IMG/VR virus record: IMGVR_UViG_3300001473_000065
Span: 1 to 42,966 of that record
Length of the DNA: 42,966 bases
Strand: one strand, 5' to 3'
Source: a virus
The notes below the pieces were generated by a model that did no database searches, had not been told where the DNA came from, and saw only the letters and a program-made list of their open reading frames with translations. The number at the start of each line of letters is the position of its first letter. The stretch's first letter is position 1. A program made the translations under genes and the position numbers. Below are positions 10,531 through 34,768 of this stretch, piece by piece.

Positions 10531-11040
10531 CTACTCTGCCGAAAGCGCCCGCAAACCGGTTTGGGTATCGAGATCATGAGGGGCATATTTCGGCTGATCT
10601 GACACATTCCAGGCTCGGCGGCGATCGGGATCAGGCATCTCGACCTCTTTGCCGCCCTCATTCGCAACAGCCGTCTCGATCGCGCGATAGACTGCCGGTC
10701 CGAGTGTCCCGCGCGTCACCTCGCACCCATCCTGGAAGATCGCGACCAGCACGTTCGGCGACCAGATCGTGACGATGGCCAGGACCGTGTCGCCCTCGTG
10801 TTCCGTGCGCGGCGGAACCGCGTTGAACCTGGCGATCCATGTCCGTGCCATCTCGCCTTCGATATCGGTGAGAATGGCCACAGCGCCGCGCGCTGCAAGG
10901 CCCGCAAGCCGCGCGCGCGTTCCATCAAGCGTCGGGACGCAGCTATCCGGATTCGGCGGTGGCGACGGAACGGTTTCGGCAAAACCGAACCCCGCCGATG
11001 CGACGAGCATCAGCACGGCCGCGACGAGACGATGCAACAT
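10531..11040 (-). CDS. Secreted small protein of unknown function
   Basis: A 169-residue protein with a clear signal peptide: MLHRLVAAVLMLVASAGFGFA, with cleavage expected after the AFA-like site before ETVPSPPP. The mature part has two cysteines (NPDSC, DGCEV) that could form a disulfide, and no recognised domain. The ATG follows AGGAAG at good spacing. It is the last gene of the leftward operon, 27 bases after the membrane coiled-coil gene, so it would be expressed with lysis genes. A periplasmic role in lysis or exclusion is conceivable but unsupported. Confidence 0.6.
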   Translation of the reverse strand: MLHRLVAAVLMLVASAGFGFAETVPSPPPNPDSCVPTLDGTRARLAGLAARGAVAILTDIEGEMARTWIARFNAVPPRTEHEGDTVLAIVTIWSPNVLVAIFQDGCEVTRGTLGPAVYRAIETAVANEGGKEVEMPDPDRRRAWNVSDQPKYAPHDLDTQTGLRALSAE

Positions 11041-11067
11041 GATCTTCCTTCTCCGATGATCCGCCCG

Positions 11068-11484
11068 TCAGGGCGCGCGGCTGAACAGCGCGACCAGTTC
11101 TTCCCAGAAGGCGATCAGCGCGCCGGCGACGGGGAAGACGATCCCGCGCGCGACCCAGCGCAGCGAGCGGCCGACCCAGGCGGCACCGTGGGCGCGCTGT
11201 TCCATCCGCTTGATGGTCTCGATGACGGGCAGGACATCCTCTTCGATCGTCGCCTCTATCTTCGACAGCCGGGTTGCCTGGTTGGTCTGCTCGACCCGGA
11301 TCTCCGCCTGCTGCCGCGCCAGCGCCTCGACCTGGCTATAGAGCCGCGACCGGCTTTCCTTGGCGTCGTCGTCGGATTTCTCGAAGGCGGTTATCAGCCC
11401 GTCGAGCTTGGCGTTGATCGCGGAGACCTGGCCGATAAGCGCCACGACCCGCTCGTCGAGAATCTTGTCTTCCGGAATGGTCAT
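11068..11484 (-). CDS. Coiled-coil protein with C-terminal membrane segment (lysis region)
   Basis: A 138-residue protein starting MTIPEDKILDERVVALIGQV. A long coiled coil (about 15-100) is followed by a C-terminal hydrophobic segment, GIVFPVAGALIAFWEELVAL. The layout resembles DUF1515 or XhlA-like small phage proteins with a cytoplasmic coiled coil and a tail anchor. The start at 11484 is 8 bases after the o-spanin stop; the longer frame to 11571 overlaps that gene and is not preferred. The role is probably accessory to lysis, inferred from position. Confidence 0.6.
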   Translation of the reverse strand: MTIPEDKILDERVVALIGQVSAINAKLDGLITAFEKSDDDAKESRSRLYSQVEALARQQAEIRVEQTNQATRLSKIEATIEEDVLPVIETIKRMEQRAHGAAWVGRSLRWVARGIVFPVAGALIAFWEELVALFSRAP

Positions 11485-11492
11485 CCTGCCGC

Positions 11493-11816
11493 TCAATCCC
11501 ATTTGGTGCCGCCGAAATCGCGCCGCACGCCATCCGACCAGGCAACGGCGCGCGCCCGGCGGCGGTCGCAATCGGTGAGCGCCACCGCGTAGCGCCGGGT
11601 CAGGACCTTGGCGTCCGCCCCCGCCGACAGAGCCGGGCGTGGGCAGGCTTGCCGCAGGTCCGCTGGAATATCGGGAATACCGGGCAGGTCGATCTCGGCG
11701 ACACGGGCCGCGACAACCGGATCGACCCTACCGCTCGAGCTGCCGCAGCCCGTCAATGTCAGACTGATCAAGCAGGCAGCGATCATGAGCGGGAAGTGCG
11801 GCGCGGTCGGCTTCAT
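11493..11816 (-). CDS. o-spanin-like lipoprotein (Rz1 analogue)
   Basis: A 107-residue protein with a lipoprotein signal, MKPTAPHFPLMIAACLISLT followed by LTGC, with lipidation expected at Cys24. The mature part is short and starts GSSSGRVDP. The gene starts inside the upstream i-spanin gene in another frame, overlapping it by 89 bases, the architecture typical of Rz/Rz1. Together the two would span the periplasm and fuse inner and outer membranes during lysis. The mature segment is longer than lambda Rz1, so it is called by topology and position. Confidence 0.75.
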   Translation of the reverse strand: MKPTAPHFPLMIAACLISLTLTGCGSSSGRVDPVVAARVAEIDLPGIPDIPADLRQACPRPALSAGADAKVLTRRYAVALTDCDRRRARAVAWSDGVRRDFGGTKWD

Positions 11817-12093
11817 AGGCGTCCACCTCTTCAGTCAGGTCTTCGATCTCGGCAGCGTCGCGATCGGCCAGGACACGGGCAGCCCGCAGGCTCGCCTCGG
11901 CGGCCTCGGCGCGGCGGACCGCCTCGTCGAAGGCGGCCTGCGTCACCATCTGCGTGAACCGCGCCTCACAGGCGCGACGGGCGTCGCTGGCTGCGTCATG
12001 GCGCAACCACAGCACGCCAAGACCGACAGCGGCGAGGATGCCGCCCCGGACCAGCCAGCGGCCCGGGATCAGCGACAGGACGGCGCCGATCAT
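11728..12093 (-). CDS. i-spanin-like membrane protein (Rz analogue)
   Basis: A 121-residue protein with one N-terminal membrane segment (GGILAAVGLGVLWLRHD) followed by a periplasmic coiled coil (about 35-105, heptads through FDEAVRRAEAAEASLRAARV). This matches the i-spanin design. It overlaps the holin-like gene by ATGA upstream and contains the start of the o-spanin gene. It acts in the inner membrane during host lysis. Confidence 0.8.
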   Translation of the reverse strand: MIGAVLSLIPGRWLVRGGILAAVGLGVLWLRHDAASDARRACEARFTQMVTQAAFDEAVRRAEAAEASLRAARVLADRDAAEIEDLTEEVDAYEADRAALPAHDRCLLDQSDIDGLRQLER

Positions 12094-12386
12094 CCGACGG
12101 GCCCGCCCTCGCCCGGCGGAGCAGATGGCAGCGGATCACCGACCGGGGCGGTCGCCCGGCCGCCATGCACCCGGTCGCCATGCACCATGACGTTGCGGTC
12201 GTCCCAGGCGGCGCCGAAGACGTAGGAGCCGATGATGCCCGCGGCCAGCATGGCCAGCCCCTCGGCGATCGCCCGATGCAGAACCGTGTCGTCGCCCGCG
12301 CCGATCAGATAGCCGATCGCGCCGGCGCAGAAGATCAGCGCGCCGAAGACGACGCGACGGCGGTGCTTCCAGGAAGGCCTGTCCAT
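12090..12386 (-). CDS. Putative holin with two transmembrane segments
   Basis: A 98-residue protein with two hydrophobic helices, VVFGALIFCAGAIGYLI and AIAEGLAMLAAGIIGSYVFG, a basic N-terminus (PSWKHRRR) and a charged, Pro-rich tail. Size and topology match small phage holins, which permeabilise the inner membrane to release endolysin. The ATG at 12386 lies 4 bases after the endolysin stop; the longer frame to 12416 overlaps the endolysin and is less likely. It lies between endolysin and spanin genes. The endolysin has no signal peptide, so a holin is expected here. Confidence 0.7.
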   Translation of the reverse strand: MDRPSWKHRRRVVFGALIFCAGAIGYLIGAGDDTVLHRAIAEGLAMLAAGIIGSYVFGAAWDDRNVMVHGDRVHGGRATAPVGDPLPSAPPGEGGPVG

Positions 12387-12390
12387 CGGA

Positions 12391-13038
12391 TCACGCCGCC
12401 CGCACGTAGCCGCCATGCACCCAGCCGGTATAGCCGGCCGGCGTCGTGACGTTCATCCAGCTGCCGTCATGAGCGTTGATCGTCACGAAGGTGCCCTCGG
12501 GCAATTCGCCGACGATCTCGCCGTTCGGCGCGCGGCGGAAATTCAGGATCTCGGCCGTGACCGTGCCGGTCTTCGCCGGATGTTCGGATTCGAACGTCTG
12601 GTTGCCGTCCAAGGAATTGGTGTCGCTCAGCAATGGCGCGTATTCCCGCCTGGCCGGGAAGCACGGGCAGGCCTTGGCCGAATAGTCGTGATGACCGGAG
12701 ACCTGTTTCAGGCCATGGCGGGCAATCGCCTCTTTCGTCAGGCGGGCCATGGTCGCCTTCTGGGCCGGTGTGCGCGTGTCCTTCGGCGTGCGCCCGTCTT
12801 TTGCGACGCCGCCGACATAGGTGTAGCCGATCGTCCCGGTATTGCGGCCGCCGACATGAGCGCCGATGCGCGCTTCCGGCCGGCCGTCACTCACCGATCC
12901 GTCGAGATGGACCACCTTATGATAGCCGATACCGCTCCAGCCGCGGGCGCGGTGCCAGCGGTCGATCTCCGCCACCGTGACCGCGCGCCCCTCCGGCGTC
13001 GCGGTGCAGTGCCAGATCAGTTCGGTGATGGCGCGCAT
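12391..13038 (-). CDS. N-acetylmuramoyl-L-alanine amidase endolysin with SH3 domain
   Basis: The first 140 residues form an Amidase_2 (T7 lysozyme-like) domain. Probable zinc ligands are His10 in IWHCTAT, His116 or His117 in SGHHDYS, and Cys124 or Cys126 in KACPCF. Residues about 155-215 resemble a bacterial SH3 domain (AEILNFRRAPNGEIVGELPE, then VTTPAGYTGWVHGGYV) for wall binding. It would cleave the bond between muramic acid and the peptide stem. There is no signal peptide, so export depends on a holin. AGGAG precedes the start at 13038. An intrinsic terminator lies just upstream (13065-13084). Confidence 0.92.
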   Translation of the reverse strand: MRAITELIWHCTATPEGRAVTVAEIDRWHRARGWSGIGYHKVVHLDGSVSDGRPEARIGAHVGGRNTGTIGYTYVGGVAKDGRTPKDTRTPAQKATMARLTKEAIARHGLKQVSGHHDYSAKACPCFPARREYAPLLSDTNSLDGNQTFESEHPAKTGTVTAEILNFRRAPNGEIVGELPEGTFVTINAHDGSWMNVTTPAGYTGWVHGGYVRAA

Positions 13039-13451: not shown

Positions 13452-15359
13452 TTAGCGGATGTATTCGATGCATCCCTGAAGCCGCGTCGGGCTGCCGGAT
13501 GATGACGACAAAACGGTTGGCGCATCGGCGTTGTTCATGTCGCCGGTGTTCGCGTTCTGAACCGTGAACCTGCCGGCGGTCGTCGAATGGCGGCGGATAC
13601 CCCACCCCGCGAAATTCGATCCCACGGCGGCGTTGTCAGCCTCGTGAACGACCCCGGCCGACACCCACGCTGCCTCGGCGGCTGTGAACGGCAGGGATAC
13701 CAGCAAGTTCCCGCTCGGCGCCGTGCCCGCGCCGATGTAAGCTTCGATGTTGAAGAAGGCTTTCACCCATTCTCCATCGGTTATGTAGAATCCCTCCTGA
13801 ACGGTATGGACGATGCCGCCTGCAACCGTGCCGCCGGACAGCGCGGGAACCCATGTGCCGCGATCGAAGCCCGCCAGATGCGACGATGCCAGGGCTGCGC
13901 CGTTCACATAGGGGGCCTGTTGGAGGTTGATTGTGCCGGCGCCCTGATCGCCGTTGGTGGGGGTGCCGACGACAACACCGTCCTCCACATAAGCCCGCGT
14001 GGCGCTTGTGCCGCTTTGCGCCGTGCGAATTTCCAGCCGTCCTGAGTGAGAGCCCGCCGTCGGCGAAACGATCCGCGCATTCGTGCCTGCATACACCGCA
14101 TCGATGCCGCTGCTCAATCGGCCCAGATACTCAAGAATGCCGAGATAGTCGTTTGCCGCAGGGCTCGCGCTGCTGCGTGCGATCCTGACGTAAGGGCCGA
14201 GGCTTGAAGTGTCATCGCTCCAGAGAAAGCGGGCTGGAAATTGCCCGTAGAAAAACTGTCGTTCAGTCCAGGTATGAGAGACGTTTAGGGTCGGCACCGG
14301 ATCGCCATTGACGAAGAGTGCGGTCGCGTTGAAGGATCCCGGTCCCTGATATCCGCCGGCCGCCCCTTGCATGTATGCGCCGTCACCGAACCAGGCGACA
14401 TCGTTATAGCTACCGTTTCGCCGCGCTGCGACGTAAACGGAGGCACTCTCGCTACCGGCCGCGGGATCGTTGATCTTTCCGCCGACGAAACCGTAATTTC
14501 TTTCCGCAGCAGCGGAGTCGCGACCTCTAAATACCACCCGACCAATCGAATCATTTACGGCCGGCGAACCACTGTCTCGGAACACACGGAGTTCCGGCCC
14601 CGCGCCAGCACCGGAATCGGTTGAAAGTGCGAGAATCGACGGATTGCCGGTGAATGTCTGGACCGCCGTCCACGTCTGAGCGCCATCCAGCCGAGCCACT
14701 TGCGACCACGGCTGCCAGGTCATGGAGGGCTCGTCAGGATCGACGCCCGCCCGAACCCAAGTTGTGTTGGTTTCGTAGTGGATGATCTGCTGCCAGATGG
14801 TATCGGCGCCCCTGACGACCAGCATCGTTGACCAGTTCCAATTGTTTGGGGGGGCATTGGTGTTCGCGTTCGATAGTCGATAGAAACCGCTTTCTACCAG
14901 TGTGTTCAGATCGCCCGCGGTTGTCTGGACTACCCCCTCCAGCCGACTATCGGTGCCGGTGTGGTACACGCGCGACCACGGCTGCCAGGTCAGCGCCCCT
15001 CCGACATCCGGCGGGCTGCCCGCGCGCACCCAAACGGTATTGCTGCCATAGTGAATGATGATCTGCGCGATCGTCGCAAGGCCCCGAATGACCTGCATCG
15101 GGGACTGCTGCCAGTTGCTGGCCGGTGCGTTGGCGTTGGTGGTGCCAAGGCGATACCAGCCGCTTTCGACGATCGTATTCAGATCCGCGTCGGTCTGCGC
15201 GACATTCGCCGCGAGGCGATCGGGAAATTCGTCCAGATAGGCCTTCAGCTCGTCGAGCGTGATGCGCCCGTGCACCATGGACTGAACCAGATACAGCAGT
15301 TCGGTTCCATCGAAGCCGGCAAGGGCGGGAAGCTGTGTCAGCTGTTTGGGTGCACTCAT
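13452..15359 (-). CDS. Tail fibre protein with pyocin-knob repeats (second of two)
   Basis: A 635-residue fibre. Residues 1-60 form a short N-terminal attachment segment (PKQLTQLPALAGFDGTELLY). Two pyocin-knob-like domains follow at about 60-135 and 145-220, each with the pattern DLNT-V-ESG-YRL...NAP..NW...M.V.RG.....QIIHY..NT.WVRAG.....WQPW. The distal part is Gly/Ser-rich with beta repeats ending in a head-like domain (GSPTRLQGCIEYIR). Its first 135 residues are closely similar to those of the fibre at 15580-18798, but it lacks the S74 chaperone. AGGAG precedes the ATG. It probably binds a surface receptor. Confidence 0.85.
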   Translation of the reverse strand: MSAPKQLTQLPALAGFDGTELLYLVQSMVHGRITLDELKAYLDEFPDRLAANVAQTDADLNTIVESGWYRLGTTNANAPASNWQQSPMQVIRGLATIAQIIIHYGSNTVWVRAGSPPDVGGALTWQPWSRVYHTGTDSRLEGVVQTTAGDLNTLVESGFYRLSNANTNAPPNNWNWSTMLVVRGADTIWQQIIHYETNTTWVRAGVDPDEPSMTWQPWSQVARLDGAQTWTAVQTFTGNPSILALSTDSGAGAGPELRVFRDSGSPAVNDSIGRVVFRGRDSAAAERNYGFVGGKINDPAAGSESASVYVAARRNGSYNDVAWFGDGAYMQGAAGGYQGPGSFNATALFVNGDPVPTLNVSHTWTERQFFYGQFPARFLWSDDTSSLGPYVRIARSSASPAANDYLGILEYLGRLSSGIDAVYAGTNARIVSPTAGSHSGRLEIRTAQSGTSATRAYVEDGVVVGTPTNGDQGAGTINLQQAPYVNGAALASSHLAGFDRGTWVPALSGGTVAGGIVHTVQEGFYITDGEWVKAFFNIEAYIGAGTAPSGNLLVSLPFTAAEAAWVSAGVVHEADNAAVGSNFAGWGIRRHSTTAGRFTVQNANTGDMNNADAPTVLSSSSGSPTRLQGCIEYIR

Positions 15360-15361
15360 GG

Positions 15362-15505
15362 TCAGGCTCCTGGTTCCACTGACCAGATCGCATCAATCCG
15401 CAATGTCGGGCGGGACACGACGCCAAGCGACATGGGGTCCGGGTTGTGCGGCCGGTCCTCGGCGCGCGCGGCGCGATATCGGGGGAATTCGGGGATGGGG
15501 CGCAT
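15362..15505 (-). CDS. 47-residue ORF with a tail-chaperone-like C-terminus
   Basis: A reverse-strand frame starts MRPIPEFPRYRAARAEDR and ends IDAIWSVEPGA. The last residues parallel the end of the fibre-assembly chaperone at 18801-19289, which finishes EDVIWPTEPGA, and both are followed two bases later by a fibre start. It lies between the two fibre genes and looks like the trimmed partner in a duplicated chaperone-fibre unit. It may be translated but might only provide the junction and ribosome site for the second fibre. Confidence 0.5.
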   Translation of the reverse strand: MRPIPEFPRYRAARAEDRPHNPDPMSLGVVSRPTLRIDAIWSVEPGA

Positions 15506-15579: not shown

Positions 15580-18500
15580 TCAGGCGGCCAGAGCGGCGAC
15601 CTGGGTGGAAAGCTGATCGACTGTATTTTGCAGCGTCTCGACCTGCGCCTCGAGAGTGTCGATGCGAGAGTCCTTTTCCCGCGCCTGCGCCACGACATAG
15701 GCGATCACATTGGGGACGGTGCGAGACCAGTCGACGCCCCACATCTCCGCCTCCGTCTCGCCTGGTGAGACGGCCTTCGGAAAAATCGGCTGCAGGGTCT
15801 GGGCGTAGGCGCCGAAATCCTCGCTGCCGTCGGAGCGCCAATTGAATTTGCCCAGCACCGCCGCGATCTCGGTCACGACATCGCCGGGCGCAAGCGTGTG
15901 GCGAAAGTTCTGTTTGGCCCGCGCGTCCGAAATGGAGTTGAACGTGCAGTCATTTCCGTTCGTCTTGATGTTGCCGACTTCGCCATTCGGGTTGTGTAGC
16001 GAATAGTGGCTCCGCCCACCGCCGGCGCTTGCCGATGACCGCATCTTCGCAGCATTTTCCGTCGCGACGATGTCGCGTCCGTCGGAATTACCGTTCTGGC
16101 TGAACGTGCCCCACTCGATTTGATTGTCGACCTGCACGAAGCCGGTGAAGGTCGATGTACCCGAATAGGTGTTGTTGCCGTTCAGCTTTCCGACCTTCCC
16201 CCCGGACGTCCCGACATTTTCAACCGCGGCACTGCCAAGGCCGAGGTGTGTCCGCGCCGCCGACATGCTCCCGGAAATCAAGAACGACTCCATATCGACG
16301 GAGATGGTGTAGGTGCTCATCCCGCCTAGGGGACTCGTAAAGTAGGGGATCGATCTGTTGGGAACTTCGAAACTAGATAGCGATTGGAGGGCCAGATCAT
16401 AGCCTTGGACGTCCGATCCGATCGCAAGGCCAAGGTTCGAGCGAGCATTTGCTGCTGTTGACGACCCCGTCCCGCCGTTCGCTATTGATAGGCTGACACC
16501 GGACCAATCGTTGCTGTTGATCGTGTCCTTTTCAGCCAAGGCGCCCATATTCAGGATGGTCTTGACTTGGCTGGCAGACAAATTGGACGGATTGCCCGTT
16601 CCCGCGCCGCTTGCGCGCCCCTTGATGGTGGCTTGCGCCATATTCTCAAGCTTGGCGTTGGTAACCGCGTCGCTGGCTATCTGTGCCGTGTTCACTTGAT
16701 CGAGATCGGCTAATGCCCCCAACGCAAGGTTCGCTTTGATTTGTGGCGTCGTATACAGCGCGGCATTGGCGCCGGTTATTGCGCCGCCATAGCCGATCAC
16801 CTTGAACCCGCCGACCCCGCCGTCGCTAGGGAGCTTGTCGAGCGATACAGTGTGGTCCAGAATCTTGGGGGCAGTTATCGCGCCATCATCAATCTGCGCC
16901 GTAGCAACCGCATCGAGATCGGCAAGAGCGCCTAAGTTCAGGTTCGCTTTGATCTGCGAGGCTGAATATAGAGTCGCGTCCCCGCCTGAAACTGCCCCCG
17001 CGTAGCCGATAACCTGGAACCCCCCTGTACCGCTGTCGCTTTGCAGCTTGGAGAGCGTGATCGTGTGGTCGTTGACAGTATCTAGCGTCGCCAGCGAACC
17101 CAGCCCCAGATTGGCGCGCGCACCGGCCGCGTTGGATGCGCCGGTGCCGCCATTCGCAACGGACAGGTCGACGCCCGACCAGTCCGCGTTGTCGACCGTG
17201 TTCCTGGTCGACAGCGCACCAAGCGCGACACCATTGCGGTACAACTCGGTGGCGTTGAAAGTCCCCGCGCCTTTGTCGCCACCTGCAGGCGAACCAACCC
17301 TAACGCCAGCGCCGATTGTAACAGCGCCGTTGTAGGCACCATTGCTTCTCGTCGCGAGCGTAAGGTTCGAGTCGTCTGATCCAGAGGTTGCGTCCAGGAG
17401 CGCTGACGTGATGAACCCGTGGACCTGTTTGGCGCCGGCGCCGTCGCGGCCTGAAAAGCGAATCTGGGCGAGATTGTCGCCCCCCGACGCGCTGCCGGTT
17501 TCGCGAAACAACTCAAAGATCGGCCCTTGCGATGAGCCGTTATCGTCCCATTGCAGCCTAAACGGGAATTGCCCTGTTGCAACTTGGGTAGCCGACCATG
17601 TGTTTGTGGTGTTCAGCTTCGCGATCGCGTCACCCGACGTGCCGACGTTTTCCGTCGCCGCAGATCCCAGGCCCAGATTTGTCCGCGCGGCCGCGTTGTT
17701 TGCGGACAGGAGGAGCGCCTCTGAATCGGCGGATATGGTGTAGGTGCTCATGGCACCCAGGGCGCTTGTGAAATACGGGATCGACCGGTTGGGCACCGCG
17801 AAGTCTGAAAGGGCCTGCAGCGCCGGATCGTACCCCTGAACGTCGGCCCCGATCTCCAGGCCAAGGCCGGTTCGCGCGTCTGCCGCGTTGGAGGCGCCCG
17901 TCCCGCCATTTGCAACCGCGAGATCGGCGCCATTCCAGTCCCCGTTGCTGATCGTATCCCGGGTCGACAAGGTGCCGAGCGCCGTCCCGTTCAGATAAAG
18001 ACTGGCCGCGTTAAGGGAGCCGCTCCCCTGGTCGCCGCCGGTCGGATCGCCGATGACCAGTCCGTCTTGCAGATACGCGCGCCGACCCCACACGCCCGCC
18101 TGAAGCGTGTAGAGTGACACGCGACCGTCCTCGGACCCGTCGGTCGGATCGATGACATGCGCCGCGATCGACGAATAGGGAACCGGCTGACCGGCATCGT
18201 TCTGACCGGAAAATTCCAGAACGCCCAATCCGTCATACGCAACGGGGCTGTTTGAGCTTCGCTGGAGCTGCATAAACGGACCGAGCGTGTTCCCGTCGTC
18301 GTCCCAGCGCGCCGCGAGGGGATATCGATCCTGGAAAACCTGTCGCGCGCTCCACCATTGCTGGAGGTCGAGCTTCGCCAGATTGCCGTCGTTGCCGGTG
18401 TGATAGACCGAAGCCCATGGCTGCCAGACGCCCGCGCCCCCAGCCTCCGGCGGATGGCCGGACCGCACCCAGACGGTGTTCGTCTCCCAGTGGAAGATCA

Positions 18501-18798
18501 GCTGGGTGATGGTCGCAAGCCCCCGGCCGACAAGCATGGGAGACTGTTGCCAGTTGCTGTCCGGCGCGTTGGCGTTCGTGGTCCCGACGCGGTACCAGCC
18601 GCTTTCCACGATGGTATTCAGATCCGCGTCGGTCTCCCCGACATCCGCGGCAAGCCGATCGGGCAGCTCGTTCAGATAGGCCTTCAACCGGTCGAACGAG
18701 ATGCTGCCATGCACCGCGGACTGCACCATGTAGAGCAGTTCGGTGCCGTCGAAGCCGTCGAGGGCGGGGAGCTGCGTCAGGAGCTTCGGTGCGGTCAC
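15580..18798 (-). CDS. Long tail fibre with C-terminal S74 intramolecular chaperone
   Basis: A 1,072-residue fibre. An N-terminal attachment segment and one pyocin-knob domain (about 55-135) precede a repetitive shaft with recurring LSVANGGTGASNAAxARxxL and IxxDAITNAKL-type units. The end carries an S74 domain: SISDARAKQN with the self-cleaving Ser near residue 957, then FGAYAQTLQPIFPKAV and a terminal coiled coil. S74 domains trimerise the fibre and then cleave themselves off. The GTG at 18798 follows GGGAG and matches the start of the second fibre; an upstream extension to 19038 runs antisense-like through the chaperone gene and is rejected. Confidence 0.9.
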   Translation of the reverse strand: MTAPKLLTQLPALDGFDGTELLYMVQSAVHGSISFDRLKAYLNELPDRLAADVGETDADLNTIVESGWYRVGTTNANAPDSNWQQSPMLVGRGLATITQLIFHWETNTVWVRSGHPPEAGGAGVWQPWASVYHTGNDGNLAKLDLQQWWSARQVFQDRYPLAARWDDDGNTLGPFMQLQRSSNSPVAYDGLGVLEFSGQNDAGQPVPYSSIAAHVIDPTDGSEDGRVSLYTLQAGVWGRRAYLQDGLVIGDPTGGDQGSGSLNAASLYLNGTALGTLSTRDTISNGDWNGADLAVANGGTGASNAADARTGLGLEIGADVQGYDPALQALSDFAVPNRSIPYFTSALGAMSTYTISADSEALLLSANNAAARTNLGLGSAATENVGTSGDAIAKLNTTNTWSATQVATGQFPFRLQWDDNGSSQGPIFELFRETGSASGGDNLAQIRFSGRDGAGAKQVHGFITSALLDATSGSDDSNLTLATRSNGAYNGAVTIGAGVRVGSPAGGDKGAGTFNATELYRNGVALGALSTRNTVDNADWSGVDLSVANGGTGASNAAGARANLGLGSLATLDTVNDHTITLSKLQSDSGTGGFQVIGYAGAVSGGDATLYSASQIKANLNLGALADLDAVATAQIDDGAITAPKILDHTVSLDKLPSDGGVGGFKVIGYGGAITGANAALYTTPQIKANLALGALADLDQVNTAQIASDAVTNAKLENMAQATIKGRASGAGTGNPSNLSASQVKTILNMGALAEKDTINSNDWSGVSLSIANGGTGSSTAANARSNLGLAIGSDVQGYDLALQSLSSFEVPNRSIPYFTSPLGGMSTYTISVDMESFLISGSMSAARTHLGLGSAAVENVGTSGGKVGKLNGNNTYSGTSTFTGFVQVDNQIEWGTFSQNGNSDGRDIVATENAAKMRSSASAGGGRSHYSLHNPNGEVGNIKTNGNDCTFNSISDARAKQNFRHTLAPGDVVTEIAAVLGKFNWRSDGSEDFGAYAQTLQPIFPKAVSPGETEAEMWGVDWSRTVPNVIAYVVAQAREKDSRIDTLEAQVETLQNTVDQLSTQVAALAA

Positions 18799-18800
18799 GT

Positions 18801-19289
18801 TCAGGCTCCCGGTTCGGTCGGCCAGATCACGTCTTCCGGCGCGCCGAAGGTCGACGGGACATCGCGCAGGGCCTGGCGATAGGCCTTCCACGCATCCTGT
18901 GCCGCAACGTCCAGTGGCGCATCGGCGAGAACCGTCCAGTCGGACCGGCTCAGGCGCGCGTTTCGTTGCGCTCGGACCCCGGCCCAGAGCGCGTACTGCT
19001 CGCGGGCGGCCGTCTCCGCCGCCGTCTCGACGCGCCACTGTCCGTTGTCATTGACGAGTGTCTCGTCGAGACCGCAATCGACCTCTTGCCAGGCGGGATC
19101 AAGAGAAGCGGCATGTTTTCGGCCGGCAGCGTCGATCCAGAATTTGGAGAGGGTTTGTGCGTCGAGGAATGCGCTGTCGACGTAGCGGAGCCGGTCCAAT
19201 CGCAGCGCCCGTAATGCCTCGGGAATCTCCGGGCCATCGACCAGATCCGCGCAGCCCGCCACGATATCCCCATTCAGGATAGCATACAT
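18801..19289 (-). CDS. Phage tail fibre assembly chaperone
   Basis: A 162-residue protein whose C-terminal half has the tail-assembly-chaperone pattern: REQYALWAGVRAQRNARLSR, SDWTVLADAPLD and AWKAYRQALRDVPSTFG. Such proteins help fold or attach the distal fibre. The internal ATG at 19289 has GGAG eight bases upstream, better than the ATG at 19295. It ends 2 bases before the fibre start, so the two are coupled. Its C-terminus is partly duplicated in the small ORF between the fibres. Confidence 0.8.
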   Translation of the reverse strand: MYAILNGDIVAGCADLVDGPEIPEALRALRLDRLRYVDSAFLDAQTLSKFWIDAAGRKHAASLDPAWQEVDCGLDETLVNDNGQWRVETAAETAAREQYALWAGVRAQRNARLSRSDWTVLADAPLDVAAQDAWKAYRQALRDVPSTFGAPEDVIWPTEPGA

Positions 19290-19304: not shown

Positions 19305-20303
19305 TTAGGCATTCGCGCCGAAACGAATGCGGGTGTTGCGGACTTCGATCGTGCGCTGATCCCAAATCCGCACACTGTAGCGGTGCGCGGCATAAAGGCC
19401 GAAACTGTTCTCGATGCCATTGCCGCCGTCTACTATTGTGTATTCTGGATGGGTAACATCGCTCTCGTGCGCCGTCGTGAAATCGTTCACGGCGATCAAT
19501 CGGGGGCGCGGCCGCCGCGACCAGTTCAACTCGATTGTGTGGTAGTTACCCATGTTGGCTGGATTGGTGTGGTTCTCGAATGCAAGCTCGCCGAGACCCT
19601 GAACACCGATATGCACATCTGCTTCGGTGTCGATGTTGTGGAGGTTGACCAGCGGCGTGATCGTCGCGACATTGGAAGCGTCGGTAACGACCCTGGCGAT
19701 GAGCATGTCGTCATAGGTGGAATCGAAACTCGGATGGCTCTCAGGCTCGGAAAACGGATTGTATGCCGCGTCTGCCAGGTCGTTGATCGACAGCGCCTCC
19801 GCGCCCGGTGCCATGTTCATGCGCACGTGATAGGTCTTGCTGGCGGCAGTCGAAAACGTCCGGGAGAGCTCATCGAAATCCGACGTCGACATCTGATGGA
19901 TGCCGCGGTGCAGGATGCTGACGCCACTCACAACGCGTACCTGCCCACCGGTTGGCACGGTCAGGTTGATCTTGCCATCGGCGGAATTGAGCACTTCGGG
20001 ATAGAACAACAGCCGCGAACGCGCCTGGTTCATCAGGATGTAGTCGCTGGTCGCGCCGGTACCGGTCGCTGACGCGATAAGCGCCTCGATCGCCTTGCGC
20101 ACCTGCTGCAAGTCAGCATCGTTGTCGGTCAGGCCGGCATAGTCGATCAGATGACCGAGCTCGGCCTGTACCGCGTGGTGCAGCCAGTTGAACAACTCAC
20201 GGTCAGCCGGACCGCATTCGAAGCCATTCAACCTTTCATTGGCTGTCGGACGGCGTTTGTTGCCTTCGCCATTGGCGAAGGCACTGACGAATTTTTCTGC
20301 CAT
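19305..20303 (-). CDS. Phage tail fibre or collar-type protein
   Basis: A 332-residue protein with an N-terminal baseplate-contact segment (ERLNGFECGPADRELFNWLH) and a beta-rich body (DGKINLTVPTGGQVRVVSGV, YHTIELNWSRRPRPRLIAVN). It lies between the DUF2612 tail protein and the fibre chaperone, where many contractile phages carry a proximal fibre or collar protein. I assign a structural tail role by position and composition; the exact family is not recognised. It may be the adaptor onto which the two longer fibres dock. Confidence 0.65.
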   Translation of the reverse strand: MAEKFVSAFANGEGNKRRPTANERLNGFECGPADRELFNWLHHAVQAELGHLIDYAGLTDNDADLQQVRKAIEALIASATGTGATSDYILMNQARSRLLFYPEVLNSADGKINLTVPTGGQVRVVSGVSILHRGIHQMSTSDFDELSRTFSTAASKTYHVRMNMAPGAEALSINDLADAAYNPFSEPESHPSFDSTYDDMLIARVVTDASNVATITPLVNLHNIDTEADVHIGVQGLGELAFENHTNPANMGNYHTIELNWSRRPRPRLIAVNDFTTAHESDVTHPEYTIVDGGNGIENSFGLYAAHRYSVRIWDQRTIEVRNTRIRFGANA

Positions 20304-27975: not shown

Positions 27976-28601
27976 TCACCTCTTCTTCCCCGGCGCCTCC
28001 GTAGCGCGTCTTGCGATGTCTTCGCGTAGATCCAGGGCTTCATGCATGTCGGCCAGATCATCGATCGTGAGGTCGCCGCAGACATCTCGCCAGGAGCAGA
28101 GTGGCGGGTCCGCCAGCACCGGGCGCCACAGCCACAGATCCTCGTGAATATTTGGCGCTATGCGCTCGATGTCGCTCCCGGACGCGTGGCCGCCGTCGCC
28201 GCCGCTTGTGCGCTGCGGCCGACGGCGCCGAAAAAATCCGCGAAATTCACCTTCAGAACGAAACCCGCCACCTTCCAGGCGCCAATCAGATTGTCCTGAA
28301 AATGGTGATCGAAGACGATGGCCTCGTAGCCGCTACCGCTCGCCGTCTTGATCTGAGCGGATTCCACCAGTTGGGTGATCAGGCTGTCGGCCTCATCCAC
28401 GTCGGCCCTGGCCAACACATCATTGATGATGGCGGCCATCACCCGTTCCGTGCTCTCCTCATCCACGCCACCGCGCAACACCGCAATCCCGTCGAGCGCC
28501 GGACCGAGCACCTTGCCGAGGCGCAATAGAAGCCGCTGCGCCTCGCGGGCGGGAAGCTTCTCGCAGCGTATGGTGACATCGTCGATCTTCTGTTCCGGCA
28601 T
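27976..28601 (-). CDS. Tail assembly chaperone, -1 frameshift product
   Basis: The short chaperone frame contains T TTT TTC (28230-28236) near its end. A -1 shift there leads into an open frame that ends at TGA 27976-27978. The extension includes HEDLWLWRPVLADPPLCSWR, DVCGDLTIDDLADMHEALDL and REDIARRATEAPGKKR. The extension is well formed (W-R-P-x-L, D-L-A-D-M-H-E-A-L-D) and has no start codon of its own in a sensible place. Two overlapping products made by programmed -1 frameshifting at this position are a hallmark of long-tailed phages (lambda G/GT). The product would be about 208 residues and would bridge the tape measure and tube subunits during assembly. Confidence 0.75.
28158..28601 (-). 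CDS. Tail assembly chaperone, unshifted product
   Basis: A 147-residue protein, MPEQKIDDVTIRCEKLPARE, with helical body AQRLLLRLGKVLGPALDGIA and ESTERVMAAIINDVLARADV, and NLIGAWKVAGFVLKVNFADF before the slip site. Position between tail tube and tape measure and the frameshift extension identify it as the tail chaperone. The last 20 residues after the slip site are Ala-rich and end at TAG. It is interrupted on both sides by oppositely oriented cargo genes. Confidence 0.8.
   Translation of the reverse strand: MPEQKIDDVTIRCEKLPAREAQRLLLRLGKVLGPALDGIAVLRGGVDEESTERVMAAIINDVLARADVDEADSLITQLVESAQIKTASGSGYEAIVFDHHFQDNLIGAWKVAGFVLKVNFADFFGAVGRSAQAAATAATRPGATSSA
28230..28236 (-). promoter_or_regulatory. 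Programmed -1 frameshift slip site
   Basis: On the reverse strand the frame reads GAT TTT TTC GGC, giving the canonical heptamer T TTT TTC (X XXY YYZ). Slipping back one base opens the chaperone extension. The GC-rich bases immediately downstream could form a stimulatory structure. Confidence 0.75.
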
Positions 28602-29375: not shown

Positions 29376-29810
29376 CTAGACGTATTCCACCTGCGTCGGA
29401 TCCCAGGCCTGGGCAAACAGCACCCAGTCGCGCGAGGCGGCGTTTTCGCCATAGGCGTGCTGCGGCGCGCGGATGATGGTGGCTTCGGCCGCCGAGCCGC
29501 CCTCGTTGTTGCCGGTGTCGCGCACCGACAGCCCGAAGGGCAGAAGCCGGCCCGAGCGCATCCGCTTCCAGCGGTTGTGCAGGAAGGTGTGGGTCGGCGA
29601 GGTCGGCTGCAGCTTCAGGACGATCATCACCGAGGTATCGGCGGTGATCGAGACGATCGCCGCCCCGTCGACGCCAACAAGCGGGAAGCCGATATCGGAA
29701 TGCGGCGCGATCGTCACCGCGTCGTTGCCCTCCCAGAGGCCGGTGACCAGTTTGCCGTCCAGCACGACGGCGACGTTGAGAAAGCTGTAGGACGTAAGGG
29801 CTCGAGACAT
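29376..29810 (-). CDS. Tail tube protein (DUF3277-like)
   Basis: A 144-residue beta-rich protein, MSRALTSYSFLNVAVVLDGK, with DAVTIAPHSDIGFPLVGVDG, SITADTSVMIVLKLQPTSPT and RMRSGRLLPFGLSVRDTGNN. Small size, the YSF-x-x-V start and the place right after the DUF3383 sheath match DUF3277, the tube protein of this phage class. It forms the inner tube propelled by sheath contraction. Confidence 0.8.
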   Translation of the reverse strand: MSRALTSYSFLNVAVVLDGKLVTGLWEGNDAVTIAPHSDIGFPLVGVDGAAIVSITADTSVMIVLKLQPTSPTHTFLHNRWKRMRSGRLLPFGLSVRDTGNNEGGSAAEATIIRAPQHAYGENAASRDWVLFAQAWDPTQVEYV

Positions 29811-29927: not shown

Positions 29928-31085
29928 TCAGAACTGCATCGTGTAGTTGACGGTCGCGTAGTGGACCGCGCCGGCATAGCGGAAGGTGCAGTTGATGTCG
30001 GGGGCGACGCGGTTGCGCCGCTGGGCGGCCGGCACGTCCTCGACGGCCTCGACCGTGATCTCGTAGGCCGGCAGCAGGTCGCCGCTGTCGGCGTCCTCCA
30101 CATCGGCGATGAGGCCGGCCTTGAAGGCCCGCTGCATCACCTGCTCGACACCGGCGACCAGCATGTGGATGCCGGTGTTGGTGTAGGGGACGACGTCGTT
30201 GTTGGCGAGGATGCCGAGCAGCGTCTCCTGGGTGCGGGCGATCAGCCAGTCGGAGGTGTGGATCTCGTCGATGAAGGCCGAACTCAGCGTCGAGCCCTCG
30301 ACCACCATCGGCAGCCCGCCGATATCGACATAGGTGTTGGCGAAGTGGCCCTCGTCCTTGTCGAGGCCCTTGTCCGGCACGAAGCCGGTGATGGCCTGAA
30401 CGGCGGCCGAGGCCTTGTTGACCGGGGTGATGCCGCGCAGCCGCTTGAACTTCAGCGTATAGGCGGAATCGACCTGGTCGAAGTCGCGCGTCGCGGTATA
30501 GCCGGACGCCGCCGCCGCCACGTAGTGTTCGGGCTCATGGTGATAGAAAACCGAGGTGCGGTCATAGGCGGTCTGGTTGCGCACGGCGATGTTGTCCGTG
30601 GGGCCGGGCGTGGCGACGGGCGCGCTTTCCAACCGCGCGTCGTTGGAGTCGAGGAACAGCTGGATGTTCTTCGCCTCCGCCCAGGCGACCGCGGCGTCGA
30701 GCACGGACTGGTCGCGGAACTCGGCGGTGAACTGCAGCCAGTACCAGTCGGAATCGGCGGCGTAGACCGCATCGAGCTCGTCGGCCATCGCGGGGCTCGG
30801 CACGGTGTCGAGCGTGCCGGCATCGATGAAGCCGATCTTCAGCTGCTTGGGACGCGGGTTCTGGGAAAAGGCCGAAAGCGCCGCCTTGTAGGCCTCGTCG
30901 GCCGCGTTCCATTCGGCCGCGACCTCTTCCATCGATCCGTAGACCTTGGTGCGGGTCCCGGCGCTGACCGGCGCAGCGGCCTGCGAGGTCAGGATCAGCG
31001 GCACGCCGAAGCCGTCGCGGGTGGGAAACCGGTCCTGCCGCGTGACGGTCACCTCGACAACACGGGAAAAAGGCAGTTTAGCCAT
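29928..31085 (-). CDS. Contractile tail sheath protein (DUF3383)
   Basis: A 385-residue protein starting MAKLPFSRVVEVTVTRQDRF. DUF3383 features include PLILTSQAAAPVSAGTRTKV, AFSQNPRPKQLKIGFIDAGT, FYHHEPEHYVAAAASGY and LKFKRLRGITPVNKASAAVQ. It forms the contractile outer sheath, so the right element has a myovirus-type tail. AGAAGGAG precedes the ATG. Length is normal for the family. Confidence 0.92.
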   Translation of the reverse strand: MAKLPFSRVVEVTVTRQDRFPTRDGFGVPLILTSQAAAPVSAGTRTKVYGSMEEVAAEWNAADEAYKAALSAFSQNPRPKQLKIGFIDAGTLDTVPSPAMADELDAVYAADSDWYWLQFTAEFRDQSVLDAAVAWAEAKNIQLFLDSNDARLESAPVATPGPTDNIAVRNQTAYDRTSVFYHHEPEHYVAAAASGYTATRDFDQVDSAYTLKFKRLRGITPVNKASAAVQAITGFVPDKGLDKDEGHFANTYVDIGGLPMVVEGSTLSSAFIDEIHTSDWLIARTQETLLGILANNDVVPYTNTGIHMLVAGVEQVMQRAFKAGLIADVEDADSGDLLPAYEITVEAVEDVPAAQRRNRVAPDINCTFRYAGAVHYATVNYTMQF

Positions 31086-31190: not shown

Positions 31191-31796
31191 TTAAGGATAG
31201 GTGGTGGTGTTCGCGAAACCGGAGGCGCCTTCGGTCAGGGTGGCGGTTCCGGTCTCGGCTGCGTCGATCAGATAGCCGTCCTGGACGGTTGCGAAGAGGG
31301 TGACCTCGAATTTCGCCCGCCGCTCCCAGGCCGCGCCGACGTTTTCGGGTGTGTTGTCGATCGAAATGAACTCGCAGCAGTCGTCGATCGTGGAGCCGTT
31401 GCAGCAACAGCGGCAGTCATCGCATTTGCGGCGGGTGCGGCGATGTTGCAGCGGATGCAGATGGTCCACCAGCACCGTGCCGTTCTCCAGCGAATTGATC
31501 AGATAGCGGGCATTGTCGATCGCGCCGGTCCGGAAGGCCTTTATCGAGACCGTCCATTCCCATTCGACGGCGCGCCGCTCGGTCGGCTGGATCGCGCCGG
31601 TATCCTCCTCCGTGAGGACACAGCCGAGCGCCCGCACGCGCGTCGCCTTGATCACATCGACGGTCACATACGGCCCGGCCGGTCGCGGCGTGTCGGAAAA
31701 CCCTTCGATGACATCGATCCCGAGCATCGCCGTGGCCCATCCCTGCAGAAGGGTGAAGATCGCCGCTTCGGAAACGGTGGCATCAATCAAGGACAT
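31191..31796 (-). CDS. Phage neck terminator protein (LIC_12616 family-like) with Cys-rich insertion
   Basis: A 201-residue protein. The C-terminal DNTPENVGAAWERRAKFEVT followed by LFATVQ and the N-terminal MLGIDVIEGFSDTPRPAGPY resemble the neck terminator family, which caps the tail tube at its head-proximal end. Residues 117-142 are an unusual insertion with seven cysteines (CDDCRCCCNG and DDCCE) and arginines, perhaps a metal-binding loop. A tail-terminator subunit is needed even without a head. It is followed by the sheath gene. Confidence 0.75.
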   Translation of the reverse strand: MSLIDATVSEAAIFTLLQGWATAMLGIDVIEGFSDTPRPAGPYVTVDVIKATRVRALGCVLTEEDTGAIQPTERRAVEWEWTVSIKAFRTGAIDNARYLINSLENGTVLVDHLHPLQHRRTRRKCDDCRCCCNGSTIDDCCEFISIDNTPENVGAAWERRAKFEVTLFATVQDGYLIDAAETGTATLTEGASGFANTTTYP

Positions 31797-31799: not shown

Positions 31800-32423
31800 T
31801 CAATCCCAGGGCTTGGGGCGGCCGTGATAGACGACAATCGCCGCGTCTTCATGGATGCCGTTGCGGACATGGAACTTGAAGGAGGCGATCTCGCCGTCCG
31901 GAAACACGGGCTTGTCCGGACCGAGCCTGATCGAGGCCCAGGTCTGGTCGTCGCCGATCATGCCGCTTGCGCGGATGTCCCCGACGGATCCGGGCACCGT
32001 GAAATCCGACCAGAGATCGGGCGCCGCGTCGTGATCGATCAGCATGACCGAGGTGTTGTAGTAGGCCGGCCGCTTCGCCGGACTGCGCGGCGTGAAGTCG
32101 AATTCCCTCAGGAGCACGATCGGCTCGGGCCGGGTCACCAGGTGATCGATCGAGCGGGTGATCGTGATGTCGAGATCGAGGACCAGCATGCGCCTGCCAT
32201 AGGCCCTGCCCCAGACCGCGATCTTCGGATAGGCAAGCCCGAGGCCGATCAGATGCGCCTCGACCGGGGCGGTGCGGATGGCCGGTTCAAGGCCGTGCGT
32301 ATCGTCCGTCACGCAGACGATCTCGTGCGGCACGCTCAGATGCCGGTCGACCATGGCGGCGAGCCGGTTGACATGGGCGGCGCGGTAACGGTTGCCCCAT
32401 TTGAAGCATACGACGCTCAGCAT
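31800..32423 (-). CDS. Glycosyltransferase-like protein (GT-A type)
   Basis: A 207-residue protein starting MLSVVCFKWGNRYRAAHVNR. A Rossmann-like start is followed by PHEIVCVTDDTHGL and the GT-A metal-binding type motif MLVLDLDITITRSIDHL with DLD near residue 97. YYNTSVMLIDHD and ASFKFHVRNGIHEDAAIVVY HGRPKPWD close the domain. It resembles small GT8-like transferases in phage genomes. The ATG at 32423 overlaps the stop of the next gene by 7 bases; a longer frame reads antisense-like and is rejected. The substrate is unknown; it lies where head genes would be expected. Confidence 0.7.
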   Translation of the reverse strand: MLSVVCFKWGNRYRAAHVNRLAAMVDRHLSVPHEIVCVTDDTHGLEPAIRTAPVEAHLIGLGLAYPKIAVWGRAYGRRMLVLDLDITITRSIDHLVTRPEPIVLLREFDFTPRSPAKRPAYYNTSVMLIDHDAAPDLWSDFTVPGSVGDIRASGMIGDDQTWASIRLGPDKPVFPDGEIASFKFHVRNGIHEDAAIVVYHGRPKPWD

Positions 32424-33055
32424 TTCAGACGGCCGACAAGGGCGGAAAACGCCGGGCCGGTGCGATAGGCCTGCCAGGCCGCGCTGTCGGCACCCTGGCG
32501 CGCCTTCTGCCTGGTCTTCACGCTGTCCCAGGCAACGCCCGGCATATTGTCGGTCAGCCGGACAACATGGTCCTTCAGATAGCGCAGACGCCCCGTGCGC
32601 CGCGCCAGATGGCACCAGAAATTGTCGATGCCGTAATGCTCGATCGTCGGCAGGGCGAGAAACCCGACCTGCCTGACGAGGTCCGCCCCGATACACGGCA
32701 GCGGGAAGTATCGCGGCGTGTGCAGGAGATCGTTGGGATAGGCAACCCGGTCCGGCGCCGCGGCGAACGTGAGCGCCTGGTCCCAGCCCCTGGTCAGCGG
32801 CTCGATATCGTCGGCGAAGATGCCGTAGAAGGGCTCGTTCGGCCGCATGGCATAGGCATAGGCAACCTTGGCCGCGCACCCGATCGTTTCCCCCGGTCGG
32901 ATAAGCAGCGGACAGCCCAGGGCTTCGTAGTCGGCAATCTTCGGATCGGTCTCGTCGATCACGACCCAGAACGGCGTCGTCGCATGCGTTCGCTCGTAGC
33001 ACCTCAGGAATCGCGCGACCTTCCCCGGCCGCTCCCGGCTCGGGATTATCCACAT
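32417..33055 (-). CDS. Glycosyltransferase-like phage protein
   Basis: A 212-residue protein, MWIIPSRERPGKVARFLRCY, with PFWVVIDETDPKIADYEALG, CAAKVAYAYAMRPNEPFYGI and FADDIEPLTRGWDQAL. The P-S-R-x-R start, the VID segment and FADDIEP resemble family-2-like GT-A folds found in prophages. It overlaps its neighbours by 10 and 7 bases, forming a three-gene block with the MptE-like protein and the second transferase. Modification of tail, fibre or host envelope are all possible. Confidence 0.65.
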   Translation of the reverse strand: MWIIPSRERPGKVARFLRCYERTHATTPFWVVIDETDPKIADYEALGCPLLIRPGETIGCAAKVAYAYAMRPNEPFYGIFADDIEPLTRGWDQALTFAAAPDRVAYPNDLLHTPRYFPLPCIGADLVRQVGFLALPTIEHYGIDNFWCHLARRTGRLRYLKDHVVRLTDNMPGVAWDSVKTRQKARQGADSAAWQAYRTGPAFSALVGRLKC

Positions 33056-33915
33056 GGCAGAACCGCCTCCGGAGCGACTTTCGGGAACACATCGACGGCG
33101 CTGTCGAGACAGGCATTCACCACAGGCACGCCCTTGGCCAGTATCGCCGCGCCCATTGCCTCAAGGTCCGGCACGAATTTCGATTCGTAGCAAAACTGCA
33201 GGTTCTTCAACGCGTGAAAGTCATGCCAGTTGCCGTTCGGGCGCATGTCGAAGCCGAGCAGGTAGATCGGCGCGGCGCCGAGCAGATAGGCAAGGTTGAG
33301 CGCGCGCGATCCGCTAGACCGTCCAGCCAGACCATCGGGGGCCTCAGACACGGGGCCGGGCACGTTGCGGATCTGCCTGATGTCGGACCGCCCCTTCAAT
33401 ACGCCCCGATGCGTCGAGATCACCTCCCCGGCGAAGTCGACGAAGGCCGGCTCATCGTGGTTCCACTCATTGAAGCGCTTGTCGGAGAAGAACAGGACAT
33501 CGGCGAACGGCAGCGTGCGATAGGCGGCATTGACGGCGATGATCCGACCCGCGTTTTCAAGCGCGGCGAAGTCGAAACCCGACAGCGACGGGCCGCCGCC
33601 GACCACGAAGCACGGCTCGCCGGCCCACGCATCGACCGGGACCGACCAGTTCAGGTCATTGGCCTTCAGCGACACTGGTCGCGGGCGCGCCGGCTGCTCG
33701 CTATCCGGCTTTCTCAGCGTCTGACGCCGAGCCGGTTCCGCCGGGGCCTTGCTACGTTCCTGGCGTCGCACGGCGTTGGTCAAATCCTGGAGAGCTGAAC
33801 GACCCATGAAGCGCACGTCTTCGGCTATCGCCTGTCTGGTATTGGGCTTGCGGGATATGATTGCCCGGCCGATACGGCGCATGGCGTCGCGCCGCTCCCT
33901 GCATCTGCATCCCAT
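33046..33915 (-). CDS. MptE-like/DUF115-type Rossmann protein
   Basis: A protein of up to 289 residues whose core starts PCFVVGGGPSLSGFDFAALE and continues with NAGRIIAVNAAYRTLPFADV LFFSDKRF; the GGGPSL loop and following NAAY and D-x-x-F segments match the 6-hydroxymethylpterin pyrophosphokinase MptE-like (DUF115) fold used by sugar-transfer related proteins. NLAYLLGAAPIYLLGFDMRP follows. The first 100 residues are basic and poorly conserved. Start uncertain: ATG at 33915 is used, with 33882 or about 33807 possible. The 33916-34213 gap upstream has no gene I can support and could hold the late promoter. Confidence 0.65.
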   Translation of the reverse strand: MGCRCRERRDAMRRIGRAIISRKPNTRQAIAEDVRFMGRSALQDLTNAVRRQERSKAPAEPARRQTLRKPDSEQPARPRPVSLKANDLNWSVPVDAWAGEPCFVVGGGPSLSGFDFAALENAGRIIAVNAAYRTLPFADVLFFSDKRFNEWNHDEPAFVDFAGEVISTHRGVLKGRSDIRQIRNVPGPVSEAPDGLAGRSSGSRALNLAYLLGAAPIYLLGFDMRPNGNWHDFHALKNLQFCYESKFVPDLEAMGAAILAKGVPVVNACLDSAVDVFPKVAPEAVLPCG

Positions 33916-34213
33916 GATGGTTTCTGCTTTTTGTCGGGGGATGGCCGGACCGGACGGTAAACCCGGCACGCTCCTTTCAGAGGTGAAGCGGCCTGGGCGC
34001 CGTAACGGCCTGATCGATCGCAGGGGCCGGATCGGATCGATGCGGCTCAGGGATCGACAGCACGCTGCCGATGCAAACTGCCATCGACGCAGTAGCCGAA
34101 ACTCAATCTTGAAGCGGTTGTGGGAAACACTCTGTGGCGCGATGCACAGGATAGGCCGGTCTGGCCGGGCTCCATGGGCGAACCGACGGTCGGCCCTGGG
34201 TACCGATCGGGTG

Positions 34214-34768
34214 TCAGATGACTTCCCCGACATGCTCCGGCGCCATCTCAACGAGTGATTCGCGCCCGAACATCTTCACGTATGCCCTAATCTTGTGCTT
34301 GCCGTCAAGCGGCGCGGTTTCGGCCACGGTCGCCCAGAGCCGGCTGAACGGCGAGTCATCACCGATTACAAACTCGGTGCCGGCGCGCAGCTTGGGCACG
34401 ACAGGGTCGGGACGATCCGGGACAAAACCGTCTTCCTCGACACCGATATCGTTGGCGATCGACTTCAGCGCATCGCCTTTGACGACGAGCAAACCGGCGT
34501 CCGCAAACCCGACATCCGCGCCGTACAGCACCGTCGACACACCATCGGTTTTGTTGATCAGGTCGATGCGCCGCGTTTGACGGACGAAAAGGTACCGCGA
34601 GAAATACGACACCATCTCGCAGCGGGTCTTGCGATATTGCGGCCGGCCGATGGAGCGCTGATGGAACCGATGCCACCACCACACGCGGAAGCCCTGCCGG
34701 CGCAGATGCATCGTTGCCCGGTTCTCCATCTGCGGCTTGGTATGCACGATCAGCCAGGAATCAGACAT
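34214..34768 (-). CDS. NusG/RfaH-like transcription antitermination factor
   Basis: A 184-residue protein with an N-terminal NGN domain (SDSWLIVHTKPQMENRATMH, RRQGFRVWWWHRFHQRS, SYFSRYLFVRQTRR) and a C-terminal KOW-like part (LRAGTEFVIGDDSPFSRLWA, KIRAYVKMFGRESLVEMAPE). NusG-type specialised factors bind RNA polymerase and let it read through terminators or pauses. It lies at the head of the tail operon, and at least two terminator-like hairpins occur downstream in that operon, so processive antitermination is a reasonable inference. Confidence 0.8.
   Translation of the reverse strand: MSDSWLIVHTKPQMENRATMHLRRQGFRVWWWHRFHQRSIGRPQYRKTRCEMVSYFSRYLFVRQTRRIDLINKTDGVSTVLYGADVGFADAGLLVVKGDALKSIANDIGVEEDGFVPDRPDPVVPKLRAGTEFVIGDDSPFSRLWATVAETAPLDGKHKIRAYVKMFGRESLVEMAPEHVGEVI

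Follow-up and report, generated by a model that had tools for sequence, protein, structure and literature searches.

The best-studied R-type tailocins derive from P2-like phages (cited in PMC10811719), and tailocin loci do not typically include replication genes (PMC10811719). Rhizoviticin, an F-type tailocin of the alphaproteobacterium Allorhizobium vitis VAR03-1, is encoded beside a tRNA-Cys gene, lacks head genes, and has kept DnaB and a replication initiator (PMC10811719). Its activity has been shown, and five early-region genes were required for that activity; its authors placed it at an early stage of the path from prophage to tailocin, with no earlier tailocin in the class known to them (PMC10811719). 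In this study, we analyzed the IMG/VR virus record IMGVR_UViG_3300001473_000065 (42,966 bases; hereafter, the window), in which a single prophage-derived element at 10.5 to 43.0 kb, element B, encodes a contractile tail and a lysis cassette and no head. Element B is best read as a tailocin locus early in domestication, a contractile counterpart of rhizoviticin. We assign a probability of about 0.58 to its being the descendant of a temperate phage that lost its head and packaging block, from terminase to connector, and is now an R-type tailocin locus.

The tail and lysis genes of element B form one operon on the minus strand, running from 31796 down to 11068 in the order terminator, sheath, tube, chaperone, tape measure, tube initiator, phrog_349 protein, hub, spike, PAAR, three wedge or baseplate proteins, a further tail protein, two fibers, amidase, holin-like protein, and spanin-like proteins (Table 1). 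None of its reading frames shows a visible break. Genomic hallmarks of an R-type tailocin are present: the contractile tail module is complete (sheath, tube, tape measure, baseplate, spike, and fibers), the retained terminator could in principle cap a headless tail, a lysis cassette is linked to the tail genes (amidase by hidden Markov model [HMM] match, holin and spanins putative), and no head, portal, or terminase gene of this element lies within the record. An earlier interpretation made from the DNA letters (the sequence-only reading) had described a contractile-tail element without head genes, with tail, baseplate, spike, PAAR, fibers, and lysis cassette in order, and both points were borne out by the profile matches on the minus strand and by the negative head and packaging profiles. 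The limits that it gave, 10531 to 34768, hold for the tail part and fall short of the full extent, as element B reaches at least 42966 and its integrase gene (41722 to 42966) lies outside them.

Element B carries the tail operon of the lineage of the myophages RHEph04 and Pam3 and lacks the complete head and packaging genes of such phages. No match was found in element B to any RHEph04 or Pam3 terminase, portal, protease, capsid, adaptor, or neck protein; the Pam3 tail terminator alone was matched. The TerL profile phrog_2 was negative across the whole record and positive in 11 of 14 control genomes. Likewise, TerL PF03354 and portal PF05133 had no match anywhere in the record, with positive controls. 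A search with portal phrog_145 was negative too and is uninformative, as no control was positive. None of the ten longest unassigned open reading frames (ORFs) on the opposite strand belonged to a head family, and one of them was the NinB-like recombination gene. The HMM check proposed by the sequence-only reading was therefore negative for terminase and portal, and the only capsid match in the whole record was a gene at 4554 to 5789. This gene was rejected as the head of element B: it belongs to a separate element A on the other side of tRNA-Cys, where guanine-plus-cytosine (GC) content is ∼55%, and has no portal or terminase with it.

In element B, the head slot lies between a NusG-like gene (34214 to 34768) and the terminator and holds, toward the terminator, ∼500 bp with little coding signal and then three coupled, overlapping sugar-transferase-like genes. 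Glycosyltransferase-like and MptE-like genes had already been proposed for 31800 to 34213; this content was confirmed, and the number of genes was corrected from two to three. Codon-position GC showed that the long ORFs at 31800 to 33116 and 33046 to 34251 include out-of-frame extensions. No head-gene remnants were found in 33.6 to 34.26 kb. The operon is unbroken from NusG to the terminator except for the ∼500-bp stretch, it contains no Ns, and the glycosyltransferase-terminator join is tight, with the stop ending at 31800, the terminator starting at 31796, and 3 bp between them. In two head-bearing relatives (L022 and L025), a homolog of the MptE-like protein is encoded within the head operon, flanked by head-morphogenesis and protease genes, and in the complete phage S20 a glycosyltransferase and sialyltransferase cassette sits between the capsid-gene position and the head-closure/terminator genes. 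Sugar genes are thus ordinary cargo of this section of a phage late operon. Most simply, the head genes that surrounded them were lost; the sugar genes may also have been inserted after the loss. That they modify cell-surface glycans of the producer would be speculative.

Relatives were collected by sheath and hub scans of viral contigs and by a sheath scan of genome contigs. For 82 distinct relative sheath sequences, core head genes were found upstream, directly before the terminator. The connector end adjoined the terminator start in the 103 loci in which both were matched (median distance of matches, 12 bp). Element B retains the terminator, which a tail requires for capping, and has lost the connector next to it on the upstream side, a combination that favors a tailocin. 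The comparison with related genomes that the sequence-only reading had suggested left the window as the sole headless locus, since all relatives with enough upstream DNA, in viral and genome contigs alike, carry heads. Sampling of 783 genomes by sheath (385 of the class and 398 of the order) returned one close match, the center genome, which is itself head bearing. In the midpoint-rooted sheath tree, the window falls on a long branch (0.5) within a 16-member clade (support, 100/99) that includes the head-bearing L020 and L103, and its highest sheath identity to any relative is 57% (a metagenomic relative). Because the relatives carry heads and the window sheath nests among them, headlessness is most simply explained as a derived loss.

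Several loci that seemed to be headless were rejected. L064, L007, L009, L013, and L046 lack an RHEph-type head and contain heads of other families, so that an RHEph-type tail stands beside an unrelated head (phrog_145 portal with phrog_283 capsid, or phrog_3717 terminase). The presence of other head families in these five loci indicates that this tail module swaps heads by recombination. L078 and the head-bearing L024 proved to be one contig. A sheath subtype ∼90 residues longer, with its match split near residue 170, was observed in Bosea and relatives (L017, L018, L019, and L054 to L062).

Loss of integration and replication genes, a usual and not a defining trait of tailocins, was not observed in element B, where integrase, Cox, DnaB, and Rep are present. 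Retention of the integrase, an intact CI switch, DnaB, and a replication protein agrees with the sequence-only reading, and Cox, Cro, and NinB were found in addition. The CI repressor, the divergent Cro-like gene, and the operator gap between them are predicted to form a complete switch of the cleavable type. The integrase had no Pfam, PHROG, or NCBIfam match and no sensible match to a solved structure; its identity rests on the annotated homolog of phage Yong-M2-251 and on a conserved C-terminal R-H...H...Y motif. No relatives of the NusG-like protein or of the integrase were found in viral contigs, and none of the NusG-like protein in phage records. As the relatives of DnaB were at most 38% identical, no sister early region was identified.

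Production of particles by such a locus would begin with DNA damage and self-cleavage of CI, which has the required domains. The Cro side would then be derepressed, and Rep and DnaB, together with Cox and integrase, may raise the template copy number. The NusG-like protein, judging from its domain and position, would promote transcription through the long late operon, and the sheath, tube, tape measure, and baseplate proteins encoded there would assemble into a tail capped by the terminator without a head. Finally, the putative holin and spanins and the amidase would lyse the cell and release headless particles, with the two alternative fibers selecting the target. Rhizoviticin is a tested precedent for a tailocin with DnaB and replication genes kept. 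Tentatively, element B could even be a still-mobile R-type tailocin. Upon DNA damage, its own CI switch would then allow it to excise and replicate, thereby boosting the yield of headless contractile particles, and selection for killing would maintain it with its integration system working.

The window contains two elements with the tRNA-Cys gene (10258 to 10331) between them. GC content is mostly >60% in element B, the right end of which probably lies just beyond the record. Element A (1 to ∼8.6 kb) has little besides an integrase, a replication gene, a CI-like fragment, a tape measure gene, and an HK97-type capsid. Its capsid is 42 to 43% identical to those of SfIV and Klebsiella phages and is directly followed by the TMP_2 tape measure gene, with no portal, terminase, or tail genes between. 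Element A looks like a gutted prophage, a separate remnant. A DUF4238 gene (8875 to 9846) lies between the two elements, beside tRNA-Cys. No repeat of useful length that could mark an att site is shared by the tRNA-Cys side and the integrase side, and no repeat of ≥20 bp of the tRNA-Cys sequence occurs elsewhere in the window. The record starts at the last base of an integrase ORF (1 to 1206, minus strand) and ends at the last base of another (41722 to 42966, plus strand); therefore, it was probably cut at gene boundaries out of a longer contig. A 14,373-bp contig from metagenome 3300001341 (L069) is 100% identical to window positions 15121 to 29493. A plasmid search found no element B. The GcrA- and MT-A70-type genes and the hosts of relatives suggest an alphaproteobacterial host.

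The main rival explanation is a defective (cryptic) prophage, in which the head genes were recently deleted, no function is under selection, and the rest is intact for want of time. We regard this as rather unlikely. It would account for the intact integrase, excisionase, CI switch, and replication genes, and an established tailocin would indeed not usually keep a full integrase/excisionase module, which could also be explained by a very recent deletion. The gutted element A just left of tRNA-Cys suggests a locus that collects decaying prophages, and the ∼500 bp with little coding signal before the sugar genes points the same way. Furthermore, the viral and genome collections, from which records close to the window may have been left out, yielded no other genome with such a headless locus, and selection for the headless state is therefore not established. 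The full integrase/excisionase module and the lack of another headless genome count against a tailocin, of which the particle, induction, and killing activity are putative. However, decay without selection does not readily explain a total loss that reaches right up to the terminator, the only neck gene required by a tailocin, nor the tight glycosyltransferase-terminator join, nor the lack of a break in any tail or lysis gene.

Head genes located elsewhere, beyond the record ends or on another replicon, or a misassembly across 31.8 to 34.2 kb would also produce an apparently headless locus. The cutting of the record at gene boundaries is compatible with this, and L069, the sole and partial identical copy, stops at 29493 and does not reach the head-slot junction, which it leaves unconfirmed; this is a further point against a tailocin. 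Nevertheless, the explanation is improbable, as every relative with enough DNA has its head genes immediately before the terminator in a single operon, the operon of element B is without Ns and is continuous apart from the ∼500 bp, and the integrase and excisionase occupy the right end, the normal limit of an element. Least probable is a satellite with its own tail that borrows the heads and packaging of a helper phage. Element B resembles satellites in combining an integrase and excisionase with its own replication genes and switch, but no small terminase, capsid-sizing, or packaging-redirecting family was found among its main genes. The adaptor, neck, and connector are also missing, so that the neck of a helper would have to fit this terminator, and we know of no satellite that carries a full tail in place of head genes. 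The sequence-only reading had left the choice between a tailocin in mid-domestication and a satellite using the heads of another phage. The satellite half of that reading found no support, whereas the tailocin half was strengthened by the heads in relatives, the nested sheath, the intact tail, lysis, switch, and mobility genes, and the rhizoviticin precedent.

Table 1. Annotated features of element B and of the tRNA gene at or near its left limit
Feature	Position	Strand	Evidence or remark
tRNA-Cys(gca)	10258..10331	-	ARAGORN; left limit of element B or near it
Predicted exported protein	10531..11040	-	ORF with signal-like N terminus; no PHROG match
Lysis-region protein	11068..11571	-	phrog_5211 (no function assigned to family)
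Rz1-like outer spanin lipoprotein (putative)	11493..11816	-	Lipobox LTGC; overlap with Rz-like gene
Rz-like inner spanin (putative)	11728..12093	-	N-terminal transmembrane segment and coiled coil; position
Holin-like membrane protein (putative)	12090..12416	-	phrog_14936
Endolysin, Amidase_2 and SH3	12391..13038	-	Profile match
Second tail fiber	13452..15359	-	N-terminal adaptor shared with large fiber
Large tail fiber, C-terminal Peptidase_S74 chaperone	15580..19038	-	Profile match
Tail protein (RHEph04 gp35-like position)	19305..20303	-	phrog_17588
Baseplate protein	20316..21122	-	DUF2612
Baseplate wedge (J-like)	21119..22048	-	phrog_6
Baseplate wedge	22045..22722	-	phrog_120; true start probably near 22480
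PAAR tip protein	22485..22787	-	PF05488 / phrog_281
Baseplate spike	22795..23370	-	PF18352 domain; homologs in relatives
Baseplate hub	23367..24221	-	phrog_196 / PF22759
Virion protein	24218..24541	-	phrog_349
Tail-tube initiator (Pam3 gp17 equivalent)	24538..25131	-	Sequence match
Tape measure protein, 681 residues	25131..27176	-	phrog_794, PhageMin_Tail
T-domain of tail chaperone	27979..28200	-	-1 frameshift; ∼43 to 56% identity to same stretch in relatives
Tail assembly chaperone (G-domain)	28158..28601	-	phrog_1613
Tail tube	29376..29810	-	phrog_280 / PF11681
Contractile sheath, DUF3383	29928..31085	-	phrog_205, PF11863; 47 to 57% identity to relatives
Tail (neck) terminator	31191..31796	-	PF23961, NF047498
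Glycosyltransferase	31800..32423	-	phrog_1962; coding phase
Second glycosyltransferase	32417..33055	-	phrog_14945
MptE-like/sialyltransferase-like protein	33046..33675 (start approximate)	-	phrog_4603; MptE-like below cutoff; homologs in head operons
Low-coding-signal stretch, possible scar of head deletion	33676..34213	-	Codon-position GC
NusG-like antiterminator, first gene of late operon	34214..34768	-	PF02357, phrog_6386
Replication initiation protein	34956..35786	-	Profile match
DnaB replicative helicase	35777..37369	-	Profile match
MT-A70 adenine methyltransferase	37287..37931	-	Profile match
GcrA-like regulator	37868..38443	-	Profile match
Cro-like repressor	38798..39091	-	phrog_35
Operator region, 54-bp gap between Cro and CI	39092..39145	.	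Holds GCAAGTcacACTTGC, read from sequence
CI repressor, HTH_3 and Peptidase_S24	39146..39892	+	GSSM serine, FLKR lysine, Ala-Gly site
NinB-like recombination mediator	40846..41394	+	phrog_319
Cox-like excisionase, 77 residues	41486..41719	+	62% identity to 'cox' preceding homologous integrase in phage Yong-M2-251
Tyrosine integrase, 414 residues, full length	41722..42966	+	47% identity to annotated Yong-M2-251 integrase

Further features of the tail operon were observed. The tail chaperone gene contains a -1 frameshift heptamer, T TTT TTC, at 28236 to 28230 (minus strand), which most of the relatives examined share with the window in sequence and phase; other relatives have the variants T TTT TTT or T TTT TTG, and a conserved second domain follows. 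In RHEph04, Erebus, Pam3, and several contigs, the T-domain of the chaperone falls in a gap without annotation ahead of the tape measure gene, with the heptamer or a variant kept. Two paralogous genes for small predicted exported or membrane proteins (27294 to 27833 and 28653 to 29183; 27% identical) flank the chaperone on the opposite strand and had no match to a known family, and relatives also have insertions of varied size around the chaperone. From 25000 to 28000, across the tape measure gene and this moron region, GC content falls to ∼47 to 51%, which suggests a separate origin of this stretch. The first 140 residues of the small fiber are 74% identical to the large fiber and the two diverge beyond, as would be expected of two receptor-binding proteins for one attachment site. 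Outside the part aligned to its family profile, the terminator has an insertion rich in cysteine (KCDDCRCCCNGSTIDDCC).

The path from phage to tailocin has mostly been inferred from finished loci already stripped of phage genes. In element B, switch, excision, and replication genes are kept with the head block gone, which allows the order of loss to be asked, as well as whether a tailocin makes use of replication genes, as the rhizoviticin case suggests. Older morphological reports describe tail-like bacteriocins in Rhizobium. A literature search of partial coverage turned up no alphaproteobacterial tailocin that is contractile and has a sequenced locus. If the tailocin reading is correct, element B would be, to our knowledge, the first such tailocin from Alphaproteobacteria and the first from the DUF3383-sheath RHEph04/Pam3 lineage, pointing to contractile tailocins in a tail lineage and a bacterial class in which none appears to have been described.

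Among complete phages, RHEph04, Erebus, and Pam3 share with element B the gene order from terminator to endolysin (RHEph04 gp23 to gp38), and their sheaths are 47 to 51% identical to its own. In contrast to element B, Rhizobium phages RHEph04 to RHEph06, Aminobacter phage Erebus, and Pseudanabaena phage Pam3 encode terminase, portal, protease, capsid, adaptor, neck, and connector directly upstream of the terminator. Tetraselmis viridis virus S20 resembles element B in having glycosyltransferase and sialyltransferase/MptE-like genes in its late operon just upstream of the head-closure/terminator genes; however, its terminator, major tail, and tape measure operon is without an annotated sheath, its head is complete, and identities are only 28 to 32%. 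Like R-pyocins and other R-type tailocins, element B has a contractile tail, baseplate, fibers, and lysis genes and no head genes. Unlike the P2-derived R-type tailocins, its tail belongs to the DUF3383-sheath RHEph04/Pam3 lineage, from which we know of no tailocin. Element B shares with rhizoviticin the tail and lysis genes, the absence of head genes, DnaB and an initiator, and the position beside tRNA-Cys. Rhizoviticin is noncontractile and chimeric with another tail family, and its integrase is truncated, whereas element B, as judged from its genes, is contractile and has a full-length integrase and excisionase.

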